This document shows positions 553 to 16,964 of a stretch of 21,555 nt of DNA, piece after piece (the stretch's first letter is position 1; every line of letters begins with the position of its first letter). The stretch spans positions 1 through 21,555 of the IMG/VR virus record IMGVR_UViG_3300032315_000108; one strand, 5' to 3'. The position numbers and the translations under genes are program-made. Source of the stretch: a virus. The notes below the pieces were generated by a model. That model was not told the DNA's origin. It made no database searches and worked only from the letters and a program-made list of their open reading frames with translations.

Positions 553-3500
553 CTATGCGGGCGTGAGGGTGCCAGTTGGCTTGACCACAGATGTCAACCC
601 ACCCGTTGGTTTTGTCACAGGCGTCAGCGTACCAGTTGGCTTTGTCACGGGTGTCAGCGTGCCTGTTGGATTTGTCACGGGCGTCAACGTACCAGTCGGT
701 TTTGTCACAGGCGTTAACCCTCCTGTTGGCGGTTTCACTACGGGTGTCAGCGTACCAGTTGGTGGTGCAATTGTCGTCGAGGTTGACGTTGTAGGCAAGT
801 TAGTTGCAGGTTTTGTAACTGGCGTGAGTGTTGGGGCGCTGACCGTATTTAAGCCGCCAGTTGGTGTGACTGGGGTAGTGACAGGCTTAGTTACGGGGGT
901 CAATGTTCCCGTTGGCTTTATTACAGGAGTTAACGTTCCCGTAGGAGGGGTAACTGGCGTCAAGGTTCCCGTAGGCTTAGTTACAGAAGTTGACACACCT
1001 GTAGGGGTAACGGGCGGCAGGCTTCCAGTCGTGGTAGTAACTGAGTCTTGTGTTCCAGTAGTTTCAGCGGCGGCTTTTTCGTTGGCGGCTTTTACGGCGG
1101 CATCAGCTTTTTCTTTTGCTTCTGCTAGGGCTTTTGCATCTGCTATGGCTTTTACCTTAGCATCTGCTTCGGCTTTTAGTCTGACCTTTTCGTCATATTC
1201 AGCCTTAGCTTTTGCATAAGCGGCGGCCTTAGCGTCGTATTCAGCTTTTGCCTTAGCATCGTATTCGGCTTTTGCTTTTGCGTAAGCGGCGGCTCTTGCG
1301 TCTGCTTCAGCCTTTGCTTTGGCATCTGCCTCAGCTTTCAATCTGACTTTTTCGTCGTAATCGGCTTTGGCTTTTGCTTCGGCGGCGGCTTTTGCATCCG
1401 CTTGGGCTTTCATGTTGGCATCATATAGTGCTTTTGCTTTTGCTTGAGCCGCTAACTTAGCCTCATGATCGGCTTTTGCTTTTGCCAAAGCATCTGCTTT
1501 TGCCTTTTCCTGAAATTCTTTTGCTATTCTGACTTTTTCGTCATAGTCAGCTTTGGCTTTTGCTTTTGCCGCCTCTTGTCTTGCCATTGCCTCTGCTCTT
1601 AACTGCGCTTGTTTAGCCAGCGCCTCTTCTCTTGCCCTAGCGGCTTTTTCTTCAGCAATTTTTTTATTAATTGCCTCGGTTGCGGCGGCAGTACCAAGCG
1701 CGGTTATGGTAGCCCCAATTTGTGTTTGTTTTGGCTCAGTGGTTGCAGGAGCTTGAGTTACAGTTTTGCTTGCGGCTAATTTTGCCTGTTCTGCGGCTTT
1801 TACTTGTGCGTTGTGCTCAGCTAAAGCATCAGCATTAGCTTTATCCTTAGCTCGTTGTTCTGCGGCTAGGACTTCCGCTTTATGTTGTTCGTCTAATCTA
1901 GCTTTATCTGAAGCTAGTTTTTCTGCGGCTACGCGTAGGCGCTCAGCATTTTCAAAATCAATGCGTTGCTGTTCCTTTGCTATGGCATCGTCTCTTTCTT
2001 TTACCAGTTTGTTATACGTTGCATTTTGCTCTGCAAACATTTTTTGATTTTGCTCTGAGAACGTTGAAAGAAGTTCTCTTCGCCTATCAGGGTTTCTGTC
2101 AAGAATAAGAGATTGTTCTTGCGCTAATCTAGCGTTTTCTTCCCGCAACTTTGGCATAAGTAAATCAACGTCACGATAGCGCTCATTTAATTCAGCTTGA
2201 GTTTTAGCTTCTTGTTCTTCTTTAATTTTTCTTGCCGCTTCAACTTGCGCTTCGTGTTCTTTTCTATACAGTTCAGCCTTTTCTTCTAGACGCAGTTGTT
2301 GATACGCTTCAGGGTCATAAAGACGCATCTTTTCCCTAGGATCTAGTGCCTCGTATTTTGCTTTTGCCTCGGCTCTTTCTGCTTCTTCTCTTTTTGCGTT
2401 TTCCTCACTTATACGTTGGCTGTAAGCCGCCTCAGGATTATCCCGAGCCCATTTTTCCTGATTAGTCAGTTTAACTTCGGCTTCGGCATAGGCTTCGGCT
2501 CTCTTTCGATTTTCTTCTAGGTTCTTTTCCTGAAACAAATTTGCTTCGTCTTGAATACGTTGAGCCTTAGCCGCCTCAGGATTGTCGCGTTCAAATCTTT
2601 CCTGATTAGTTAATTTAGAATCAGCTTCGGCATAAGCTTCAGCCTTCTTTCGTTCTTCTTCTAAATGCTTTTCCTGAAACAAATTTGCTTCATCTTGAAT
2701 ACGTTGAGCTTTGGCCTCTTCAGGATTATCACGAGCAAATCTTTCTAGATTAGTTAATTTGGAGTCGGCTTCAGCATAAGCTTCGGCCTTCTTTCTCTGT
2801 TCTTCTAAATGTTTTTCCTGAAACAGATTTGCTTCTTCTTGCATACGTTCAGCAGGAGTTTGTGTGTATGCTTGTGAGGCTTTAACCAACGCATCTTGTT
2901 CTGCCTGTTGCTGTGGAGTTGTTGTAGATCGAGGACTTGTCCTTGCCTCAAATGCTTCTTGCGATTCAAATTGTGCAGGCCCCCCACCAAGATCTGTTTC
3001 TAGTTGCGTAAGTTGTTCTCGCGCTTGCATTACTTCGGCGTTTATATTTTCAGCCGCAAGCTGTGCAATCTCAGAATTTGTATAACTCTCTACAACTTTT
3101 ACAGTATCGTCATAGTCTTGATAGGCACTGCTAAATTCTTTTTGTGAATCAAATAACGCCCTATCAGCCACGCGCACATCAAAATTTGCTTGGTCAAAAT
3201 CAGTTTCTGCTTGTGCGTAGCCTGAAGTAATAGCCGAGTTTTCGTAATTAGCTCTTGCGGCGTTGTATTCTTGATTGCGAGTTTGCGCGGAATCAAAAAG
3301 ATCCTCAGCATATTTTGTCATTCGATTTACTTGTTCAGTATCAAATGTTTCTCCATCAACATATTTTTGCGATAAATCTTTTGCAAAAGAGTTTGCAAGC
3401 GCGGCGTGATCTGCCGCATCCTTAGCGGCTTTTGCGGCTAAAACCATTTTTTCGTGATCGCTTGCTAAATTTGGCTTGCTTTCCCAAATATCTTTGACTT

Positions 3501-4284
3501 TTTGTTTTGCTTCGTCATACTTCTTTTGTACGGTTTGCAATGTCTCTGAATTTTTGGTTAAGTTTTCATATGCTTTGCCAACAGTAGCCGAGCCAGCAGT
3601 CACCATAGCTGATTCAACAATTGCGTCGCCAACGGGCTTGCCGTTTAGTATTGCTCTTGTTGCCGCCGTGGTTGCGTTGTTAACTGTTTTTGTTGTTATG
3701 TCTTTAGGGTCTAAGCCGAACCCACCCTGATCTTTTGGTTTGGTTAAGATTTCAGTCGTAAAAGCGCTTACACCGCCAGTCACTCCCGCTTGCCCTATCT
3801 GCTCTCTAGTGCCGCCATTTAATAATGCAGTCATCGCAGGAACAGACATGCCAACCAAAACTTTTCCGTAATAGCTGTTTTTATCTTCGCCAAGAAAAGT
3901 ATTTAACCCCTTACTTACATAATTCATGCCCATGTCAATGGTTAATGCTTTAAAGTCTCCAGTTCTTATGGCATTGACAAGCCCTGACGCAACGCTGTAG
4001 GGCATAAATTGGGAAAGACCAACAGTAGCAATGTATGGCAATGGTTTTTTTACAAAAGCTTTAGCGGTTGCAAGAGTTGATGCAACTGTCGCCTCGGCTT
4101 GCTTTTGTACAACTTGCCCAGTTTTATCAACCACCTTTCCCACAGAGCTATCACCGCCAACTGACGTATTCCATGCGTTTTCAACTTTGTCAGGGGTAAT
4201 TGCCTTATAAACCTGATTGACCGCGTTGCCAACTTGATTGACGGCTTTGTTAAATGGTTTTGTGATTGATCCAATTCCTATCAT
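553..4284 (-). CDS. Very large coiled-coil repeat protein, candidate internal virion/ejection protein
   Basis: This 1243-residue protein has three parts. Residues 1 to about 250 look globular, with helical and weakly hydrophobic stretches (around 85-105 and 135-160) and Ala/Gly-rich segments. Residues about 250-1090 are almost all Ala, Lys, Glu and Gln, typical of a very long helical coiled coil. They include three 48-residue repeats at 480-623 and many short KAKAEYDAK-like units after about 865. Residues about 1090-1243 are a Pro/Thr/Gly repeat (PTGTLTPV). The start overlaps the preceding stop as ATGA (4281-4284). In T7-, P22- and SU10-like phages the large helical proteins encoded just after the tail nozzle are ejection proteins that leave the capsid with the DNA. 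Position, size and helical content fit that role, but I recognise no lytic or other catalytic motif. A tail-fibre shaft or a tape-measure-like protein is the alternative. Confidence 0.72.
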   Translation of the reverse strand: MIGIGSITKPFNKAVNQVGNAVNQVYKAITPDKVENAWNTSVGGDSSVGKVVDKTGQVVQKQAEATVASTLATAKAFVKKPLPYIATVGLSQFMPYSVASGLVNAIRTGDFKALTIDMGMNYVSKGLNTFLGEDKNSYYGKVLVGMSVPAMTALLNGGTREQIGQAGVTGGVSAFTTEILTKPKDQGGFGLDPKDITTKTVNNATTAATRAILNGKPVGDAIVESAMVTAGSATVGKAYENLTKNSETLQTVQKKYDEAKQKVKDIWESKPNLASDHEKMVLAAKAAKDAADHAALANSFAKDLSQKYVDGETFDTEQVNRMTKYAEDLFDSAQTRNQEYNAARANYENSAITSGYAQAETDFDQANFDVRVADRALFDSQKEFSSAYQDYDDTVKVVESYTNSEIAQLAAENINAEVMQAREQLTQLETDLGGGPAQFESQEAFEARTSPRSTTTPQQQAEQDALVKASQAYTQTPAERMQEEANLFQEKHLEEQRKKAEAYAEADSKLTNLERFARDNPEEAKAQRIQDEANLFQEKHLEEERKKAEAYAEADSKLTNQERFERDNPEAAKAQRIQDEANLFQEKNLEENRKRAEAYAEAEVKLTNQEKWARDNPEAAYSQRISEENAKREEAERAEAKAKYEALDPREKMRLYDPEAYQQLRLEEKAELYRKEHEAQVEAARKIKEEQEAKTQAELNERYRDVDLLMPKLREENARLAQEQSLILDRNPDRRRELLSTFSEQNQKMFAEQNATYNKLVKERDDAIAKEQQRIDFENAERLRVAAEKLASDKARLDEQHKAEVLAAEQRAKDKANADALAEHNAQVKAAEQAKLAASKTVTQAPATTEPKQTQIGATITALGTAAATEAINKKIAEEKAARAREEALAKQAQLRAEAMARQEAAKAKAKADYDEKVRIAKEFQEKAKADALAKAKADHEAKLAAQAKAKALYDANMKAQADAKAAAEAKAKADYDEKVRLKAEADAKAKAEADARAAAYAKAKAEYDAKAKAEYDAKAAAYAKAKAEYDEKVRLKAEADAKVKAIADAKALAEAKEKADAAVKAANEKAAAETTGTQDSVTTTTGSLPPVTPTGVSTSVTKPTGTLTPVTPPTGTLTPVIKPTGTLTPVTKPVTTPVTPTGGLNTVSAPTLTPVTKPATNLPTTSTSTTIAPPTGTLTPVVKPPTGGLTPVTKPTGTLTPVTNPTGTLTPVTKPTGTLTPVTKPTGGLTSVVKPTGTLTPA
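556..1020 (-). repeat. About 10-residue PTGTLTPV tandem repeats at the C-terminus of the large protein
   Basis: About a dozen imperfect units of roughly 30 bases encode variants of TPVTKPTGTL, with GGLTPV and GGLNTV variants. The array fills the last ~150 codons of the 1243-residue protein and stops one residue before its stop codon. It also produces a long open frame on the opposite strand, which I take to be an artefact of the repeat. Confidence 0.85.
2416..2847 (-). repeat. Three 144-base (48-residue) tandem repeats in the coiled-coil protein
   Basis: Three consecutive units begin RMQEEANLFQEK, RIQDEANLFQEK and RIQDEANLFQEK, and each ends near RDNPE(E/A)A. Each unit contains KAEAYAEA and KLTN(L/Q)E. 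Unit length is exactly 144 bases with no gaps. Similarity is high in protein and moderate in DNA, consistent with in-frame duplication and later drift. They form residues 480-623 of the large protein. Confidence 0.88.
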
Positions 4285-6944: not shown

Positions 6945-8182
6945 TAAAACGTGCCCCCTGACACACCACCCGAAAAGGTTCCCGTTCCCGTAATTTCAAT
7001 ACCAGTTGCTTTTGTGTTTGACACTAAAGTCCCAAGGATTGAAATGCCATACTGTCCAGCGGCGGGTCGATAGACGCCAGTGTTTGTTTCCGAAGCAAAG
7101 AACACCGCAGGGTTTGACACCGTGCCATCGACCATTGAAATGTTTGTTCCGCTTATGGTGCTCGTATTGGCATTCAAAAAGTTAGTGCCATCGCAAATTA
7201 AAGTTGCTTGGGTGTTTGTCGCCACGTTGACCGTGGTTCCTGAAGTGGTTCCAATTGTCAGCGTAAAAGCGCCAGTGGTTTGGTTACTAATGACGTACAG
7301 GTTAACTACGGGCGGGAAGTAAACCGTAACGTTACCTGTCAAAAGCCCAGTGTATTTTTGGATACTGTTGGAGGCTTCAGACGCTGTCAGGGTGTATGTA
7401 CCAGTGGAAACCACCTTGGTAAGAGCGGTAAAAGCAAAGTCAGTGCTGACGCCGTAGCCTACGGTGATGTAGGAGTTGCCAGTACAGATGATGAACGCCG
7501 AATCCCCGGGCTGGAAAGTCTTTGCCGACGCCGTGCCATCCAACAATTCACCACTCGTAGTGTTTAACAACAATGTTCCCGTGCCATTGTTTTTCAACAA
7601 CGTAAACCAGTTATTGCTAAGGGTTGACGCCAATGGCAGGTAAGCGTTAGTCGCTCCCCCCGAGGTAGGCCAAGCCAGCACTTGGGCGCGGTCTGTGGAC
7701 GCAAAGGTGTAGTTTGCGGAGAGTTGGCTTACGGGGTGACTTTGATTGAGGGTCAAGCCGCTGGCAATTAAGCCATAACCCGCAAGAGTTGCGGCGTCAG
7801 CGGTGGAGGTGCCAGTTCCAAAAGTAAAGACACCCCAAACACCGCTGGCGGTGGAATTGTTTGTCAGGTAAATGTATCGAGCAGTCCCGCCTGCAACCGT
7901 TGCAATTGTGTTGCCGTTGTAGTCGGTCACGGTTATCGTGAAAGCGCCAACATTTCGCACCAAGGCATCAGTGCCAACCGACGCTTGATCAGCAGGTGGG
8001 AACTTTAATTGCGGGACTGAGCTTGCCGCCTGAATGTCCATTATCCGCGCACACACATTGTTTGCATCTGTGCCGTTTGCAGGCCAAACCAGTTGCAGGG
8101 TGGAAGTCAGCGTGTACGAAGCATAGCTAACGTCGGTTGGGACAATAACGTCGCCAGTGAATGGGCTTATGTATGAAGTCAT
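6944..8182 (-). CDS. Tail fibre or spike-like structural protein
   Basis: A 412-residue protein, very rich in Thr, Ser, Gly, Asn and Val with few charged residues, typical of phage fibres. At least two similar beta modules of about 85 residues can be seen (around 160-250 and 260-340). Each has a Y-T-(F/L) start, a central asparagine-rich strand, and a C(D/T)G(T/N)N or similar end. The C-terminal part has FFASETNTGVYRPAAGQYGI, a pattern seen at the ends of many fibre proteins. The gene lies between the adaptor and nozzle genes and is joined to both by TAATG overlaps, so it may attach at the tail collar. No catalytic motif is visible. It could instead be a collar or head-fibre protein. Confidence 0.72.
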   Translation of the reverse strand: MTSYISPFTGDVIVPTDVSYASYTLTSTLQLVWPANGTDANNVCARIMDIQAASSVPQLKFPPADQASVGTDALVRNVGAFTITVTDYNGNTIATVAGGTARYIYLTNNSTASGVWGVFTFGTGTSTADAATLAGYGLIASGLTLNQSHPVSQLSANYTFASTDRAQVLAWPTSGGATNAYLPLASTLSNNWFTLLKNNGTGTLLLNTTSGELLDGTASAKTFQPGDSAFIICTGNSYITVGYGVSTDFAFTALTKVVSTGTYTLTASEASNSIQKYTGLLTGNVTVYFPPVVNLYVISNQTTGAFTLTIGTTSGTTVNVATNTQATLICDGTNFLNANTSTISGTNISMVDGTVSNPAVFFASETNTGVYRPAAGQYGISILGTLVSNTKATGIEITGTGTFSGGVSGGTF

Positions 8183-8817
8183 TATGAGTCAATCGCTATG
8201 GCTTGACGGTCAGCAAGCCGTCGCTTATCTTCTTCCTTCAAGGTGCTGATGATTTGCGTGTACTGTGCTTGCCACATTTGTAAACGCTCGTCGTTCTTGA
8301 GGAAAGGCATTGCTTGCAACAAAGTTCCATACAGCATGGCTTGCGGCGCATATTGTGTGAACCAATTGGTTTGGTTGGTTGAATCCAAGGGCTGGACGCG
8401 CTCGTAGTACACGGTCTCGACGCTGTAGGCAACGTCAGGCGTGGGAGCTATTAACCAGTGTGTGTAATCGTAGTCACCGTAAAACTTTGGCTGATCAGTG
8501 GCTGTGGTGCTAGGCCAATACTCCCGCAGATATTCGTACTTGCGCAAAAACAATGGGGTGCGCTCACCATCAACAATCATGGTCATCGAAACGGTTTTGT
8601 GCCAACGCGCAGGCTTTGGAACAATCGACTGGGTTGCAACCAGCGAAAAATTGCCTACGTTAATGTTGCCCAAAAACTTCATGTCAGCGGCAAGCACCTG
8701 CTCAGCCAACATGATAAAGGTGGGAATATAGGCAATAGTTTGAGCGTCAGTGCGCTCTAAATACGCCTCGACGCTGGTGACTAGGTTGTCGTATGTTTGG
8801 GCAACTGCGGTTGTCAT
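8182..8817 (-). CDS. Head-tail adaptor protein, SU10/P22 gp4-like
   Basis: A 211-residue protein. The N-terminal pattern (YDNLVTSVEAYLERTD, then IPTFIMLAEQVLAADMK) matches what I know of the phage adaptor family found in SU10-like podoviruses and related to P22 gp4. The family binds the portal and carries the nozzle. The middle has the beta segment TVSMTMIVDGERTPLFLRKYEYLREYWP, and the C-terminal half has a helix with PQAMLYGTLLQAMPFLKNDERLQMWQAQY. Length fits the family. It starts a new block after a hairpin at 8842-8858, with the purine-rich stretch CAGGGA directly in front of the ATG. It is followed without a gap by the fibre-like gene and the nozzle gene. Confidence 0.85.
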   Translation of the reverse strand: MTTAVAQTYDNLVTSVEAYLERTDAQTIAYIPTFIMLAEQVLAADMKFLGNINVGNFSLVATQSIVPKPARWHKTVSMTMIVDGERTPLFLRKYEYLREYWPSTTATDQPKFYGDYDYTHWLIAPTPDVAYSVETVYYERVQPLDSTNQTNWFTQYAPQAMLYGTLLQAMPFLKNDERLQMWQAQYTQIISTLKEEDKRRLADRQAIAIDS

Positions 8818-8879: not shown

Positions 8880-9308
8880 TTAAGCAAACTGTCTTGTGCC
8901 CTGTTTGTCGATGATCAAGGCCATTTGGCGTGGCTCGTTGTCGTCTTCGTTGGGAATTGAAATATGAGTCCAGCGGTCAAACTCGCGGATGACTTGATCG
9001 TATTTCAATTCAGCGTTAATGATGGCGGTCACCACCTCGTTTGGAGTCATGCCCTTGACGCGAAAATCGCAGGCTGTCCCACGCCTATGTTGTGATCGGT
9101 CACTTGAACCCACTGCTTTGTTAACTTCCGCGCTACGAAATGCAGAGTTCACGTGAATTTCTTTGCCGCCCAAAACCTCGCGAACTTCTTCCATGAAGTT
9201 GGCTAAGCGCACCAAGTTGGCTAATTCAGCCTCGTTGGGGGTGTTGTCAAACTCTCTGTGGTCAGTGTGCGTAAGTTCGTCTAGAGTGAAATGTTCGGAT
9301 AAGTTCAT
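8880..9308 (-). CDS. Endolysin, peptidase M15A-type (D-Ala-D-Ala/L-Ala-D-Glu peptidase)
   Basis: A 142-residue zinc peptidase of the M15 family, which cuts peptide cross-links of the host cell wall at lysis. The fold signature is complete: SAFRSAEVN (residues about 55-63), the zinc-binding pair H74 and D81 within SQHRRGTACDF, and the third ligand H115 in WTHIS. The N-terminal SEHFTLDELTHTD is typical of phage M15A enzymes. There is no signal peptide, so it would depend on a holin for export, and holin and spanin candidates lie directly upstream. The ATG at 9308 overlaps the previous stop as ATGA and has AAGGAG a few bases ahead of it. The size matches the single-domain endolysins of phages of Gram-negative bacteria. 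Confidence 0.92.
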   Translation of the reverse strand: MNLSEHFTLDELTHTDHREFDNTPNEAELANLVRLANFMEEVREVLGGKEIHVNSAFRSAEVNKAVGSSDRSQHRRGTACDFRVKGMTPNEVVTAIINAELKYDQVIREFDRWTHISIPNEDDNEPRQMALIIDKQGTRQFA

Positions 9309-9793
9309 GGTTTACTCCTTTGGTTCATGGTTTGGAAGGCGGCGTTGTAGGCGTCGATGCAGGCGTTAAGCTGTCGCGTGTTGGCGTCTCCTTGATCGGT
9401 GATGCTGACAATTCGTTGAGCAAACGCTGGGTCAAGTTCGGCGTTTGCTTGAACGCTATCTCCGCTGGTAGCGGGGGCATCATCGGTGGCTGGTACGGGG
9501 CACTCGGGGGCTTTGATAGGAACCCGCAACCGCAGAGCGCCACTGGCAATAGCCAAGTCACGTTTGGCAATTTCAATTTTTGCATTGTTGTTGACCTTTA
9601 CAAGTTGGTTTGCAGTTGTCGTAACAGCAGACACAAGCGCCTGCTCTTTTTGTCTCGCTTCATCATTGAGTTTGGCAATTTCCAGTTGCTGGCGCTCACG
9701 CTCAGCATCTTCGCCTTTTGTGTATGAGAACGCGCCAAGGCTCAAAAAAGCGCAAATCAGGGTAAGTATTACCCAAGGGTTTAACAAGCTCAT
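9305..9793 (-). CDS. Rz: i-spanin (Rz-like inner-membrane spanin subunit)
   Basis: A 162-residue protein with one N-terminal membrane segment (about residues 7-24) followed by a KGEDAERERQQ linker and a coiled coil (about 28-80) rich in Ala, Glu, Lys and Gln. A Pro-containing linker and a C-terminal helix follow. This is the layout of Rz-type i-spanins, which sit in the inner membrane and pair with a lipoprotein o-spanin to fuse the two membranes at the last step of lysis. The assignment is strengthened by a proline-rich lipoprotein frame nested inside it (9325-9585), the classical Rz/Rz1 arrangement. The ATG overlaps the preceding holin-like gene by four bases (ATGA) and the stop overlaps the endolysin start in the same way. 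Confidence 0.85.
   Translation of the reverse strand: MSLLNPWVILTLICAFLSLGAFSYTKGEDAERERQQLEIAKLNDEARQKEQALVSAVTTTANQLVKVNNNAKIEIAKRDLAIASGALRLRVPIKAPECPVPATDDAPATSGDSVQANAELDPAFAQRIVSITDQGDANTRQLNACIDAYNAAFQTMNQRSKP
9325..9585 (-). CDS. Rz1: o-spanin (Rz1-like outer-membrane lipoprotein) nested inside Rz
   Basis: An 86-residue frame lying wholly inside the i-spanin gene in another frame. It starts at an ATG (9585) with AAAGG about 9 bases upstream. The N-terminus is a short lipoprotein signal (MQKLKLPNVTWLLPVALCGC) with cysteine 20 preceded by L-C-G, so residue 20 is the likely lipidated cysteine. The mature part is strikingly proline-rich (PPSAPYQPPMMPPLP near its start, TTPPSKP at the end), as Rz1 proteins are. 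The nested lipoprotein plus the proline content is hard to explain as a chance shadow. The -2 cysteine in the lipobox is unusual; cysteine 18 is a weaker alternative. Confidence 0.82.
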   Translation of the reverse strand: MQKLKLPNVTWLLPVALCGCGFLSKPPSAPYQPPMMPPLPAEIAFKQTPNLTQRLLNELSASPIKETPTRDSLTPASTPTTPPSKP

Positions 9794-11529: not shown

Positions 11530-11970
11530 TTAATACGCCCAACGGGTTTTCGGTTGTGGCGGCTCAATCATCTTGGCAATTTCTTCTGCGTAATATTGCA
11601 TGCCAAACTTACCATCAACGCGCACATCGTAATTTTGTGGGGGCACAAATAGCTTGTTTGTATCCTCAAACCGACCCTCTTTGATGCGGTCTACCCAAAC
11701 AATAAAGTGAGCGCCAAAAGCTTCCCGTGTTTCAGGGGTAGGACAAACAAAATCAGCAATTACATTGGCGCCGTATCTAGATGCTATGTCGCACATCACG
11801 CCCATGCGCCTTGCATGTTCCAACCTGTCAGCTACGCTAAAGCCAAGGTCTTTGTTAATTTCTTTTCGCACCTCATCGGCATTAAAGTGAACGCACTGTA
11901 GCTCCCTTGCCAAAGCGGTAGCGAGGGTGGTCTTGCCAGCGCCGGGCAAGCCCATGATCAAGATTTTCAT
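11530..11970 (-). CDS. cysC-like: Adenylyl-sulfate (APS) kinase-like protein
   Basis: A 146-residue P-loop kinase resembling APS kinase (CysC), which phosphorylates adenylyl sulfate to PAPS, the universal sulfate donor. Visible motifs are Walker A GLPGAGKTT (residues 7-15, K13), N30-A-D-E-V-R35 where CysC has DGDxxR, DLGFSVADR (41-49) with HARR after it, matching the CysC LGFSxxDRxxNxRR block, and a strand with C-P-T-P-E-T-R (76-82) at the SPxxxxR position. It is shorter than bacterial CysC (about 200), mainly at the C-terminus. The ATG overlaps the sulfotransferase stop by four bases (ATGA, 11967-11970), so the two are probably translated together, supplying PAPS to the transferase. A related nucleotide or polynucleotide kinase is the main alternative. 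Confidence 0.8.
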   Translation of the reverse strand: MKILIMGLPGAGKTTLATALARELQCVHFNADEVRKEINKDLGFSVADRLEHARRMGVMCDIASRYGANVIADFVCPTPETREAFGAHFIVWVDRIKEGRFEDTNKLFVPPQNYDVRVDGKFGMQYYAEEIAKMIEPPQPKTRWAY

Positions 11971-12791
11971 CCCTTGACCTTGTACAGTGGCTTGACCTCA
12001 AAGTTTGGTGCTGGTGTTCGCCAAAAGTCTGTGTCTTTGCCATACTTCTCCCACACCGACTTAGGCAGGATGGTAGGGCGCTCCTGCCATGTAACTTCCT
12101 TGCGTACCGTGTGCAGACTTTTCATGTTTATGGCTTTGTCGTACGTCTCGTTCTCATACTCAACATTTTTAAAGTCATGGTCAAAGTATTGTTTGCCAAT
12201 GAACTGATACAACTCACGCATCACGCTCTCAGGCTTTTTGCACAAAGACTCGTACTCAACCAACATAATCATGTCAGGGTTTAACAGCAAGCCCTCTTCT
12301 AAGAAATAGTAGGGCTTGATTACTTGACCCTCTTTCTTCACATCCATCAGGGCATCGCATCGTGTTGTCACAGTTTGATTTGCTTCGTGATCTGTTAAAG
12401 ATGCGCCATACAAAGAATTCTTAGCGGCAATACGCTCAAAACTGTCCAGTATCCAAGGCAAATCACGCACACAACAAATGATCTTGGTCTGTGGGTAAAG
12501 ATCTTTAAGGAGTGATGTCTTGGCAGTCCAGCCCCTGCTAGTGTCAAAGACTGTGTTTTGAGTGATTGTTTTGTAGTAAGCCTCAAACACGTCTTTCAAT
12601 ATTTGTTTGCGTCTGCCTTCATCTATCAGGTGATTGCTCTCGCTTCGCGTAATGACTTCAATGGTTGCTGTAACCAAGTTGCTCACAGGAGATGAGATGT
12701 CTGCGTAGAACTCAGGGTTCTGACGCAAGATAGCCGAGAGCAGGGTTGAACCTGACCTTGGCAAACCGCTGATGAAGAAAAACTCTTTCAT
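11967..12791 (-). CDS. PAPS-dependent sulfotransferase
   Basis: A 274-residue sulfotransferase-family protein, which transfers sulfate from PAPS to a hydroxyl or amine on a carbohydrate, tyrosine or small molecule. The 5'-phosphosulfate loop is clear at residues 9-18 (GLPRSGSTLL), resembling tyrosylprotein and Sulfotransfer_3-type enzymes. The 3'-phosphate site is likely at ICCVRDLPWILDSFERI (105-121), with R109 and S117. A late VEYESLCKKPESVMRELYQFIG (178-199) matches the usual conserved YExLxxxP helix. There is no signal peptide, so it acts in the cytoplasm. The gene overlaps the preceding one by four bases and the APS-kinase-like gene by four bases. The substrate is not visible; the adjacent fibre and lectin-like genes make virion glycans or host surface sugars reasonable guesses. 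Confidence 0.88.
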   Translation of the reverse strand: MKEFFFISGLPRSGSTLLSAILRQNPEFYADISSPVSNLVTATIEVITRSESNHLIDEGRRKQILKDVFEAYYKTITQNTVFDTSRGWTAKTSLLKDLYPQTKIICCVRDLPWILDSFERIAAKNSLYGASLTDHEANQTVTTRCDALMDVKKEGQVIKPYYFLEEGLLLNPDMIMLVEYESLCKKPESVMRELYQFIGKQYFDHDFKNVEYENETYDKAINMKSLHTVRKEVTWQERPTILPKSVWEKYGKDTDFWRTPAPNFEVKPLYKVKG

Positions 12792-13213
12792 TCCTTTGGA
12801 ATCCAGTTGAGAGTAGCTTCATCCCACTGGTATGCGACATTGCCGCCGTTCATAATTGCATCTGCTGGTCTTGCTACTGGTGCCGCCCAAGTCATTGTGT
12901 CCAAGTATCCAATCCATGATGGGTAAGGTCTACGCGCCTCAAGCTCTGCGGCTTTGGCGGCGGTGAACTCTGCTTCGGTTAACACCTGTAACACACCAGC
13001 AATGGTGGTGTCAGCATCATCATCGCAAGTGCCGTAATATTTTGGCGCTCTGAGGTATGTGCCATCTGATGCCAGTTCAACAGGCCATGAGGACTGGTCA
13101 AACCAAGTGACTTGCAAGCCTTTGACAGCAGGCATTGATGGCCCAGTGCGTTGTGGCGCAACAGTACAGGGGATTTTTGTTACAGCGTCTACTTCTGTTA
13201 CGCAAATGTACAT
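12788..13213 (-). CDS. Conserved-looking phage protein in the tail fibre region
   Basis: A 141-residue protein with a purine-rich site in front of its ATG (13213), starting MYICVTEVDAVTKIPCTVAP. It contains TYLRAPKYYGTCDDDADTTI in the middle and ends with AYQWDEATLNWIPK. I recognise this pattern from uncultured phages, where such proteins follow fibre genes. The closing YxWDExxxxW resembles the ends of some fibre-assembly (chaperone) proteins, so a fibre assembly role is plausible but unproven. Three cysteines, no membrane segment. It overlaps the sulfotransferase start by four bases, so it shares translation with the sulfation genes. Confidence 0.72.
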   Translation of the reverse strand: MYICVTEVDAVTKIPCTVAPQRTGPSMPAVKGLQVTWFDQSSWPVELASDGTYLRAPKYYGTCDDDADTTIAGVLQVLTEAEFTAAKAAELEARRPYPSWIGYLDTMTWAAPVARPADAIMNGGNVAYQWDEATLNWIPKE

Positions 13214-13231: not shown

Positions 13232-13882
13232 TTAAACTGGAATACGGCGAATAGCACGAACACGCTCTGAACTGTTTTTAACAACAGAGTACCAAGCGCT
13301 GTTAGTAAAATATTGTGCCCGTGCGTTTGTGGCAGTAAGCTCAGTACTACTCCAATAAACGGCTGTATTGAACGCCTCTGCGCCGCCTGCTTGAAAATTT
13401 GTTACTGAGGTTTGCGCAGGTACAAATTGTGTGTAAGCAGTGGCACGAGGTGGGATGGCATTAGGGTTAATGCCCGAAGTTACAAATGTGTTGTTCAGAG
13501 CAGTAGACGGCTTTAAGTTGAAATAAAAAACATCCAACTCGTTTTGTGCGGGCATATACCAGTCTGTTTGACCACCTGTAGATAAGTCATTACAAAAGTG
13601 AGCCGCTGGATAAACAGTAGCGTTACCATCAGCCACCATATCTGCTGTGTTTTGTGGGCCATCTATATCACTATCAGCGCCAGTAGTGGCTGTAGCCGCG
13701 TTTTTATATTGCCTAGTCCCAGTGTCAGAGGTTGATTTTGGGCCAATAATAAGATAATGTGTTGCCACACCACTAACGCCAATTTGACCACCGTAATACC
13801 CGCCACCAAATGCCTCACCAATAACTGTTGGCACACTTGGAGCCGAGGTAGCCCCAGCAAGTGCAAGAACAATTCCGCTCAT
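13232..13882 (-). CDS. DUF1566/Lcl-type (C-type-lectin-like) adhesin, copy 2
   Basis: A 216-residue protein starting MSGIVLALAG, with AAGAAGGGTGG just ahead of the ATG. The core carries hallmarks of the DUF1566/Lcl C-terminal domain: LSTGGQTDWYMPAQNELDVFY, then VYWSSTELTATNARAQYF, then a final VRAIRRI. Such domains adopt a C-type-lectin-like fold and act as ligand-binding ends of phage fibres and bacterial adhesins. The N-terminal GEAFGGGYYGGQIG followed by THYLIIGPK probably forms the connecting strands. It is a tandem paralogue of the gene just before it, differing mostly in the loops and in the segment before VRAIRR. It may be a virion adhesin. The same kind of protein is a known target of diversity-generating retroelements. 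Confidence 0.82.
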   Translation of the reverse strand: MSGIVLALAGATSAPSVPTVIGEAFGGGYYGGQIGVSGVATHYLIIGPKSTSDTGTRQYKNAATATTGADSDIDGPQNTADMVADGNATVYPAAHFCNDLSTGGQTDWYMPAQNELDVFYFNLKPSTALNNTFVTSGINPNAIPPRATAYTQFVPAQTSVTNFQAGGAEAFNTAVYWSSTELTATNARAQYFTNSAWYSVVKNSSERVRAIRRIPV

Positions 13883-13928: not shown

Positions 13929-14564
13929 TTATACTACTGGTATTCTTCTTATTGCTCTAACACGGATTGCCCGAGTCTTATAACCAAAAGACTGATAACC
14001 ATTATAAAAAGTCTGAATTCTTGCATTATCAGCACTTTCCTGAGTGCTATTCCAATACTCAGTTGCTGTAAACGCTTCCGCTCCAGTAGTTACTCTAAAT
14101 GCCGCCGCAGAGGTTTGGGCGGGATTACCAGTTGTATAGCCAACTGCTCTAGCAGGAACAGCGTTAGGATTTACGCCATCTCCTACCGAGTTGTTTGCTG
14201 TTGTGGGTTTTAAGTTGTAATAGCACACCTCTAACTCGTTTTTAGCTGGCATATACCAATCAGTAAAACCACCGATAGATAACCCCTCACAGAATTGTGC
14301 CGCGGGATGGCTTGCATCATTCATTGATGCGCTGTTGGCAGGGCCGTCAATATTAGAAGTTGCACCAGCGTCGTTTGTTCTAGAGGTTTTATATTGCAAA
14401 ATAGATTGTGCAGATGCAAATGGCCCAACAATCAAGTAGTGCGTAGCAACGCTACTGACGCCAATTTGACCAGCGTAGTAGCCACCACCAAATGCCTCAC
14501 CAATAACTGAAGGCACACTTGGGGCAAAACTACCTCCAGCAAGTGCAAGAACGATTCCGCTCAT
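13929..14564 (-). CDS. DUF1566/Lcl-type (C-type-lectin-like) adhesin, copy 1
   Basis: I start at the ATG at 14564, giving 211 residues. It aligns with the paralogue's MSGIVLALAG and has GCGGGG ahead of it; an in-frame TTG at 14579 is unlikely. Domain signatures are LSIGGFTDWYMPAKNELEVCYYNLKP, EAFTATEYWNSTQESADNARIQ and the terminal VRAIRRIP. Compared with copy 2 the framework is conserved, while residues between NARIQ and VRAIRR differ almost completely (FYNGYQSFGYKT against FTNSAWYSVVKN). That pattern is expected if those residues form the binding site. The gene follows an 18-codon mini-ORF that ends four bases before its ATG. A role as a receptor-binding or decoration protein is inferred from fold and position. 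Confidence 0.83.
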   Translation of the reverse strand: MSGIVLALAGGSFAPSVPSVIGEAFGGGYYAGQIGVSSVATHYLIVGPFASAQSILQYKTSRTNDAGATSNIDGPANSASMNDASHPAAQFCEGLSIGGFTDWYMPAKNELEVCYYNLKPTTANNSVGDGVNPNAVPARAVGYTTGNPAQTSAAAFRVTTGAEAFTATEYWNSTQESADNARIQTFYNGYQSFGYKTRAIRVRAIRRIPVV

Positions 14565-14568
14565 AAAG

Positions 14569-14625
14569 CTACCCCGCAAACTGCTCGAGCATTACATGAA
14601 CCACATTGAGCATAATTCCACTCAT
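14569..14625 (-). CDS. 18-codon bridge ORF, possible coupling peptide or remnant
   Basis: An ATG overlapping the stop of the preceding gene (ATGA, 14622-14625) opens an 18-codon frame, MSGIMLNVVHVMLEQFAG. Its stop lies four bases before the ATG of the first lectin-like gene. It begins with MSGI like both lectin-like proteins. It may carry ribosomes across the gap (translational coupling) or be the stump of a lost gene. Expression is unproven. Confidence 0.35.
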   Translation of the reverse strand: MSGIMLNVVHVMLEQFAG

Positions 14626-15068: not shown

Positions 15069-16964
15069 TTAAGAAAAGATTAACCAAGATTGATCCGTAC
15101 CGACTGTCACCGAAGATGAAGTGTTTATTGTTATTGTACCTAGCGCTATTGCGTTTTTCAATGCCGCAATTACGTAGTTTGTTGAGATAATTTGTGCGTT
15201 TTCAAGCAGATCTGTGGTGCCTGCCGCTGGCGCAGTTGATTGCCAAGTTGTGCCGTTGCTCGTCAGCACATTTCCAGCGGTGCTTGGGGCGACAAACAAA
15301 GGTGCAGATGTACCGTTACCCAATATAACGTTGTTAGCTGTAAGGGTGGTTGCCCCTGTACCACCATTAGCGACAGGGAGTGTTCCTGTTACACCAGTAG
15401 TCAATGGCAAGCCAGTTAAGTTAGTTGCTGTTCCGCTACTTGGTGTTCCTAATACGCCACCATTCACAACAGGTGCGCCAGCAGAACCTACAGCTACGGC
15501 TAAAGCAGTAGCTACGTTAGTGCCTAAGCCACTGACTCCAGTAGAAATTGGAAGACCTGTCGCGCTAGTTAATGTACCGCTAGTGGGTGTACCTAGTGCG
15601 CCGCCATTTATAACAGGAGCGCCAGCAGTTCCAACGTTTACAGCCAAGGCGGTTGCTATACCTGTACCAAGTCCTGACACACCAGTAGAGATTGGAAGTC
15701 CTGTTGCGCTAGTCAGCGTACCGCTTGAAGGAGTACCTAAAGCGCCGCCATTGACAACAAACGCCCCTGCCGTGCCTACGTTGACTCCTAAAGCAGTTAC
15801 AACACCTGTGCCTGTTGTTGTAGTGGCTGGAGCCGCTCCTGCGCCACCGCCAAGCACAATTGCGTTTGCCGCCAATGCCGCACTGGTTGCCCATGTGGTT
15901 CCACTTGAAAAGTAAGGGATACCGCCTGAAGTCCCAGCAACCGTCAAAGCCAAAGTACCACTTAGGGTAATTGGTGAGCCAGCAACTGAAATTATTCCTC
16001 CAGTAAATGTCTGCGCCACAGAAGTTACTGTGCCACCACCACCGCCCGCCGCCGCAATTGTGATTGTTCCATTGCCGTTGGTGATTGTGACGCCAGCCCC
16101 AGCGGTTAAAGTTGCTTTGGAAAGTGTGTTTCCTGTGGAGTTACCAATAAGCAACTGACCATCGGTGTAAGTTGTTTGACCAGTACCGCCATTGGCAACA
16201 GGCAACGCAGTGCCTGACAAAGAAATTGCCAATGTGCCGCTTGTTGTAATTGGTGAGCCAGTAACAGACAAAAAAGATGGGACTGTTGCCGCAACACTGG
16301 TTACTGTGCCACTACCACTGGCTGTGGCGTTAATGGTTTGATTAGGCCACGTGCCAGTAACAGTTACGTTTGTGCCTGCAACGATTGCAGGGGTAGCGGT
16401 TCCAGTGCCGCCATTTGCAACAGGAAGTAAGCCCGTCACCCCAGTGGTGAGTGGCAGTCCCGTCAAGTTTGTTGCAACACCACTTGTTGGTGTACCCAAA
16501 ATAGGAGTAACAAAAGTTGGACTTGTTGACAATACAAGATTGCCAGTACCTGTAGAAGTTGTGACCCCAGTTCCACCGTTTGCAACAGCCAATGTTCCTG
16601 CTAGTGTGATTGTTCCACTTGTGGTGATAGGACTGCCTGTTACGGTCAGACCAGTTGTGCCACCCGAAAAGGCGACACTTGTAACTGTTCCACTACCACC
16701 ACCACCGCCAGTTGAATTGATGGTTTGATTAGGCCAAGTTCCAGTTACTGTGACGTTTGTTCCTGCAACAATAGAAGGAGTGGCAGTGCCAGTACCGCCA
16801 TTTGCCACTGGGAGCAAGGTCGCAAATGTTGGTGCTCCTGCGCCCCCTGATAAAACTAGCTGACCTGCTGTTCCAGCGGCTGTAAACGCTAACTCGGAGG
16901 TAGCGTTGCCGTAGGCAATACCGCCAGCAGGTGGCGTATTGTTACCATTGATAATTACTGCCAT
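15069..16964 (-). CDS. Long tail fibre protein with NGGTG and 48-residue repeats
   Basis: A 631-residue Gly/Thr/Ala/Val-rich fibre. The phage fibre signature (L)PVANGGTG occurs five times in close form (near residues 52, 127, 181, 254 and 530), each followed by a variable threonine-rich stretch. Two blocks of about 35 residues with IVAGTNVTVTGTWPNQTIN (66-84, 194-212) repeat. Three 48-residue units follow from about residue 395, then a non-repetitive end with an Ala-rich helix (STNYVIAALKNAIALG) and a closing strand NTSSSVTVGTDQSWLIF. The same kind of C-terminal strand ends the short fibre gene just upstream. It probably forms a trimeric fibre shaft whose tip is supplied by other genes. The ATG at 16964 has a GGAG site. 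Confidence 0.88.
   Translation of the reverse strand: MAVIINGNNTPPAGGIAYGNATSELAFTAAGTAGQLVLSGGAGAPTFATLLPVANGGTGTATPSIVAGTNVTVTGTWPNQTINSTGGGGGSGTVTSVAFSGGTTGLTVTGSPITTSGTITLAGTLAVANGGTGVTTSTGTGNLVLSTSPTFVTPILGTPTSGVATNLTGLPLTTGVTGLLPVANGGTGTATPAIVAGTNVTVTGTWPNQTINATASGSGTVTSVAATVPSFLSVTGSPITTSGTLAISLSGTALPVANGGTGQTTYTDGQLLIGNSTGNTLSKATLTAGAGVTITNGNGTITIAAAGGGGGTVTSVAQTFTGGIISVAGSPITLSGTLALTVAGTSGGIPYFSSGTTWATSAALAANAIVLGGGAGAAPATTTTGTGVVTALGVNVGTAGAFVVNGGALGTPSSGTLTSATGLPISTGVSGLGTGIATALAVNVGTAGAPVINGGALGTPTSGTLTSATGLPISTGVSGLGTNVATALAVAVGSAGAPVVNGGVLGTPSSGTATNLTGLPLTTGVTGTLPVANGGTGATTLTANNVILGNGTSAPLFVAPSTAGNVLTSNGTTWQSTAPAAGTTDLLENAQIISTNYVIAALKNAIALGTITINTSSSVTVGTDQSWLIFS
15351..15782 (-). 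repeat. Three tandem 144-base repeats in the long tail fibre
   Basis: Units begin NVGTAGAFVVNGGALGT, NVGTAGAPVINGGALGT and AVGSAGAPVVNGGVLGT and contain GLP(I/L)(S/T)TGV(S/T)G. Spacing is 48 residues throughout. The first two are almost identical in protein, the third has drifted and runs into an NGGTG repeat. Copies at DNA level differ at many third positions. Confidence 0.88.

Follow-up and report, generated by a model that had tools for sequence, protein, structure and literature searches.

Phage sulfotransferases are known, and their function has been called unclear (PMC10580990); viral cysC has been recorded as a gene of sulfate assimilation or sulfur metabolism (PMC12713726, PMC8066274, PMC12766990). 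No description of a phage APS-kinase/sulfotransferase pair was found in the literature covered by our search, which lies mostly outside subscription journals. In rhizobia the Nod-factor genes (NodH, NodP, NodQ) bring a sulfotransferase and PAPS-forming enzymes together in one operon. The locus described here, found in a virus contig of 21,555 bases (the window, that is, the whole stretch of DNA that was analysed), resembles them in this respect, and a homologue of its kinase is present in such an operon in Microvirga; it differs in that Mesorhizobium has CysD and a CysN-APS kinase fusion, whereas the phage encodes the kinase only. With APS kinases (CysC; the APSK domain of PAPSS1/2; PF01583, TIGR00455) the window kinase, hereafter K, shares the P-loop kinase fold, Walker A, the D and R of DGDNxR, the F of DLGF and the R of the DR motif, but it is only about 146 aa long, carries a short loop RIKEGRFEDTNKLF instead of the lid and a His/Gln instead of the contact Asn, and scores below the equivalog cut-off. 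The Sulfotransfer_3 proteins of cyanophages and marine phages (S-SKS1, S-SRM01; OM43 phages, PMC10580990) are about 30% identical to the window sulfotransferase, hereafter S; unlike S, the cyanophage genes examined have no adjacent K homologue. S and K very probably make PAPS and sulfate some molecule late in infection.

Both genes belong to a minus-strand chain of late genes, which leads from a tail fibre gene through two genes for Lcl_C proteins and a 141-aa gene to S and K, with the spanin, endolysin and structural genes beyond them:

15069..16964, minus strand: tail fibre protein, 631 aa (phrog_31660)
13929..14579, minus strand: second Lcl_C-domain paralogue (Pfam; 60% identical to the first)
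13232..13882, minus strand: Lcl_C-domain protein, 216 aa, candidate adhesin or fibre tip (Pfam, PHROGs)
12788..13213, minus strand: 141-aa gene, conserved upstream partner of S-K (weak phrog_7759 match)
11967..12791, minus strand: S, predicted PAPS-dependent sulfotransferase (Sulfotransfer_3), 274 aa (ORF, Pfam, PAPS-site residues)
11967..11970, minus strand: ATGA overlap of the S stop and the K start, 4 bp (an overlap of this length recurs in about 95 loci)
11530..11970, minus strand: K, an APS-kinase-like protein of 146 aa with a short lid (ORF, Pfam, fold, purifying selection)
9305..9793, minus strand: lysis protein of the Rz-like spanin type, lying downstream of K in late-operon context
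8880..9308, minus strand: endolysin, late-operon context
8182..8817, minus strand: virion structural protein, the backbone marker of the presence/absence test (phrog_2941)

The preliminary description of this DNA had reported two genes overlapping by four bases, and we find them as the open reading frames 11530-11970 and 11967-12791 on the minus strand, which share ATGA at 11967-11970; K has both motifs that it quoted for this protein, GLPGAGKTT and DLGFSVADR, and S has LPRSGSTLL. Such an overlap points to translational coupling of S and K. The 141-aa gene (12788-13213) overlaps S by 4 bp as well, so that this gene, S and K are chained by 4-bp overlaps. As to the fibre and lectin-like neighbours that had been noted, the fibre gene is there, while 'lectin-like' is refined to the two tandem Lcl_C paralogues (13232-13882 and 13929-14579; 60% identity across 195 residues), possibly duplicated adhesins. 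The 1243-aa protein encoded at 553-4284 has no PHROGs match at E 0.001.

The Pfam APS_kinase profile matches K at 9.3e-16, above the gathering score and with profile positions 5-91 of 152 covered; against the apsK equivalog (TIGR00455) K reaches 57.3 bits, below the cut-off of 138.7. Its AlphaFold (AF2) model (pLDDT 91.9) is predicted to have the fold of an APS kinase: the top 50 PDB matches in the fold search are all APS kinases (best E 1.3e-9, TM 0.82 by query length), and the best PDB match of the K family profile is an adenylyl-sulfate kinase. With fold and profile matches of this kind we rejected K as a polynucleotide, nucleotide or zeta-toxin-type kinase. Nor does K have a P-loop domain of the NadR ribosylnicotinamide-kinase type: the kinase domain matches APS kinases, and NMNAT likeness is found only in the C-terminal domain of long relatives. 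Walker A occupies residues 6-14 (MGLPGAGKT). The usual APS contacts we take to be those of the Penicillium and human enzymes, and K positions were read off an alignment to human PAPSS1; four of the five are kept, namely D32, R35, F44 and R49. In 50 K relatives, free-living bacteria included, neither D32 nor R35 varies, and conservation is at least 90% at F44 and R49. The fifth contact, the Asn of DRxEN, is not kept (H52 in window K, Q in most relatives), and the canonical long lid is absent, its place being taken by the short loop. At 146 aa K consists of the kinase domain only, with no ATP-sulfurylase domain. It is under strong purifying selection (dN/dS 0.02-0.07). Since K is divergent, short-lid and below the apsK cut-off, APS is strongly supported yet unproven as its substrate.

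S is matched by Sulfotransfer_3 at 9e-18 and by Sulfotransfer_1 at 1.9e-11, above the gathering score in both cases (65.8 versus 27 bits for PF13469, 44.3 versus 22 for PF00685). PRSGST, the 5'-phosphosulfate loop, begins at residue 11. The 3'-phosphate site of known sulfotransferases has an Arg/Ser pair spaced by eight, and R109 and S117 of S show just this spacing; together with G14 they are invariant across 18 clusters at 70% identity. S has a dN/dS of 0.06. By its sequence, it is a PAPS-type sulfotransferase with both PAPS-binding motifs. Its nearest solved relatives by sequence are tyrosylprotein sulfotransferases (TPSTs), a weak match with E of about 1e-4. The catalytic Glu of TPSTs lies in a GEETR segment, opposite which a weak phmmer alignment places DISSP in S; with similarity so weak and the segment not kept, S was rejected as a tyrosylprotein sulfotransferase.

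The association of the two genes is seen across phages. In a scan of 2.9 million viral contigs, K matched 531 stretches and S matched 173, of which the best 80 were kept in each case. Over all fetched loci, a K homologue lies no more than 600 nt downstream in 121 of 131 compact S (230-330 aa), and the S/K overlap is exactly 4 bp in about 95 loci; these contigs are fragments, and since the loci are related the counts are not independent: clustering the S of the adjacent S-K loci gives 42 groups at 95% identity and 15 at 90%. Close relatives of S have a K homologue directly downstream in all cases but L127 and L144, whose contigs end just past S. Conversely, a sulfotransferase is found upstream in 47/47 K loci with at least 6 kb of upstream sequence: 43 were detected by script, and the other four (L017, L026, L029 and L030) were missed by it only because the K start had been called early, S being adjacent there. 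In loci without a compact S, a 590-aa Sulfotransfer_3 protein is usually encoded 0.4-4 kb upstream of K.

The structural gene at 8182-8817 allows presence and absence to be compared on a shared backbone. In the 22 phage loci that have this gene and at least 8 kb upstream, both K and S are present in two, neither in 20 and one alone in none (Fisher p 0.004, ignoring relatedness). A whole-contig search of 15 backbone-phage contigs, several of them 54-62 kb, detected neither gene anywhere; these contigs were picked as earlier showing neither gene, so this result excludes copies elsewhere and is not an independent sample. K and S have been gained or lost together in phages sharing the window's structural gene, and chance adjacency is ruled out by the presence/absence test. 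It should be noted that K is not strictly exclusive to sulfotransferases, an idea that proved untrue in distant large phages: among 136 proteins neighbouring the K family there (41 dereplicated loci) only 3 have a sulfotransferase-family match, and DUF2061, PurA, Fe-S, MetK and MazG genes are among those that adjoin it. In Salvovirus and DLP_6 phages, kinase and nucleotidyltransferase occur with no annotated sulfotransferase nearby, and K was not found on some contigs (31-48 kb) that carry the 590-aa sulfotransferase.

With these data most of the preliminary description can be kept. The two assigned identities agree with the Pfam matches; K falls outside the nucleotide- and polynucleotide-kinase families, as its top 50 folds and its best profile match show, and the pair is strongly linked in related phages, by the counts for compact S as well as by the backbone test. 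That K makes PAPS and S uses it is supported by fold, residues and linkage, while the divergence of K, its short lid and its score below the apsK cut-off hold this claim back. The phage had also been said to lack ATP sulfurylase, which is true of the window, but many relatives have K fused to a nucleotidyltransferase that could do this step.

Gene context outside phages agrees with the K-S pairing. A 555-aa frame of Rhizobium (L406:5131-6798) unites Sulfotransfer_2, APS_kinase and CTP_transf_like domains, and its kinase part is 64% identical to K. On a Rhodoferax plasmid the order is tail fiber assembly protein, sulfotransferase, adenylyl-sulfate kinase, the last two overlapping by 4 bp; the kinase is 43% identical to K, the sulfotransferase and tail protein have no blastp match to their window counterparts at E 1e-3, and the gene annotated as tail fiber assembly protein corresponds to the window 141-aa gene by position only. 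A Microvirga plasmid has a nod-type operon of NodJ-like (read by eye), sulfotransferase, K with a fused nucleotidyltransferase (K-NT; 61% identical to K), CysD and CysN genes. Its CysN (L472:8181-9770) has DUF2061 at 464-515, whereas the Mesorhizobium nod CysN has an APS kinase at 463-612; by this comparison, DUF2061 takes the place of the APS-kinase domain in the Microvirga protein, whose operon also holds the K homologue. Two haloarchaeal plasmids carry a sulfotransferase, a small gene and cysC, and this cysC encodes a canonical full-length APS kinase fused to the same nucleotidyltransferase as long K.

Elsewhere, DUF2061 separates sulfotransferase from cysD in Mesorhizobium (L476) and S from K-NT in one phage (L133). 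In plasmid records of Bradyrhizobium and Natrinema the DUF2061 genes have no sulfate-activation neighbours, and therefore the domain is not exclusive to sulfate activation.

K comes in two lengths. The 121 adjacent S-K pairs comprise 73 short K and 48 long K (about 40%) with an extra C-terminal domain, and K is joined to this nucleotidyltransferase domain in many marine bacteria too. The domain bears the motifs GRWQPWHxGH and ISATKIR and is closest in sequence to NMN adenylyltransferases; when the long K-NT model was used for a fold search, the kinase domain dominated the matches. Animal PAPS synthase has its APS kinase at the N-terminus and its ATP sulfurylase at the C-terminus, and long K shows the same order, a kinase followed by a HIGH-type nucleotidyltransferase, but it is 264 aa long against about 600 aa, and its C-terminal domain is NMN adenylyltransferase-like, not ATP-sulfurylase-like, in sequence. 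SAR86 encodes the nucleotidyltransferase in a gene of its own, which overlaps that of the kinase. Seven SAR86 genomes (L424, L436, L443, L451, L455, L457, L459) each carry 1-3 Sulfotransfer_3 genes, and none gave a match to ATP sulfurylase or CysD or had a canonical APS kinase; going by the record title, one of them is a complete chromosome, and the rest are draft, MAG or single-cell assemblies. The nucleotidyltransferase motifs are degenerate (HESH, VSPTAVQ) in Microvirga, where CysD and CysN are present, a single suggestive case.

The presence of K, nucleotidyltransferase and sulfotransferases in SAR86, where no ATP sulfurylase is detected, suggests a compact PAPS synthetase. In such a family a short-lid APS kinase would be fused to a small NMNAT-like nucleotidyltransferase or act alongside it, and with the latter as an unrecognised type of ATP sulfurylase the two would supply PAPS to sulfotransferases in phages, SAR86, SAR11 and haloarchaea (there with the canonical kinase), and phages of the window type would keep the kinase alone where the host makes APS. 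We advance this tentatively, as a serious possibility that falls a little short of probable, because the degenerate Microvirga motifs are one suggestive case and most of the SAR86 assemblies are not complete. The nucleotidyltransferase domain of the long relatives may, then, help to make APS. If it activates sulfate, it would be a new enzyme type and would explain the PAPS source of SAR86, which has sulfotransferases and no detected ATP sulfurylase.

For the window itself we consider it likely, with good confidence, that S and K are a two-gene phage sulfation module, in which K would make PAPS from host APS and S would sulfate a late-infection target. What the computation shows is that K has the fold and APS-site residues described, that S has the residues of a PAPS site, and that the two genes overlap, are inherited together and are under purifying selection; from this we infer catalytic activity, the supply of PAPS from K to S, and the target. 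Host ATP sulfurylase would make APS, which must come from the host since the window has K alone. K would then phosphorylate the 3'-OH of APS to give PAPS, as its fold, residues and context indicate, and S, to go by its family, would transfer sulfate from PAPS to a target that is produced, or simply present, at a late stage of infection. Our best guess for this target is a sugar, on the host surface or on phage fibres; sulfation of a host-surface sugar would keep phages from adsorbing again to infected cells or debris. In sibling loci the same slot holds Methyltransf_11 (L024) and Glyco_transf_25, an LPS-type glycosyltransferase (L081), and because sugar-modifying genes occupy it, we judge a glycan a likelier target than a protein. 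A virion protein, for example a tail fibre carrying sulfotyrosine, would alter the target alone and otherwise overlaps the module reading. It fits with the fibre genes that S and K adjoin and with the weak resemblance of S to tyrosylprotein sulfotransferases, but the lost catalytic Glu segment and the sugar-type genes of the siblings speak against it, and we think it unlikely, though not negligible.

K might also be a kinase for another small molecule, linked to S indirectly: nicotinamide riboside, as in NadR, or a nucleotide of phosphoramidate type. In the capsule phosphoramidate pathway of Campylobacter, Cj1415 is a kinase and Cj1416 a cytidylyltransferase. This pathway likewise has an APS-kinase homologue and a nucleotidyltransferase working on a PAPS-like donor, but its partner genes are not seen here, and the fold and context of K favour APS. 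The missing lid, the changed APS contact, the resemblance of the long relatives' second domain to NMN adenylyltransferases and the non-sulfation neighbours of the K family in large phages would all suit another substrate. They are opposed by fold and profile matches to APS kinases rather than to NadR or polynucleotide kinases, by the tight K-S linkage, by the Rhizobium sulfotransferase fusion and the Microvirga nod-type operon with its CysN domain swap, both pointing to sulfate, and by the same nucleotidyltransferase domain sitting on a canonical APS kinase in haloarchaea, so this explanation seems to us rather improbable. Scarcely credible is a decayed K beside an S that relies on host PAPS: the lid is shortened and the match spans about half of the APS_kinase profile, but the low dN/dS, the confident fold and key residues invariant across 50 relatives, free-living bacteria among them, are not those of a remnant. 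Reviews and surveys routinely place viral cysC under sulfur energy metabolism or assimilatory sulfate reduction (PMC12713726, PMC8066274). On that view K would serve the host's assimilatory sulfate reduction as an auxiliary metabolic gene, with S an unrelated neighbour. This is very improbable, as K overlaps the sulfotransferase gene and comes and goes with it, as none of the window proteins scanned was recognised as acting in sulfate reduction, and as SAR86 combines K with sulfotransferases where no ATP sulfurylase was detected. The sulfation module preferred here suggests, on the contrary, that at least some of the viral 'cysC' genes make PAPS for sulfation, not cysteine, which alters how such genes are to be read in ecological surveys.

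Two further observations concern the surroundings of these genes. Downstream of K, L041 and L056 have genes that look by eye like those of ADP-heptose synthesis (HldE-like, epimerase-like). Among the 590-aa phage sulfotransferases (L309-L386) one member has a weak TPR match, and in several loci the sulfotransferase gene lies among RCC1-like fibre genes.
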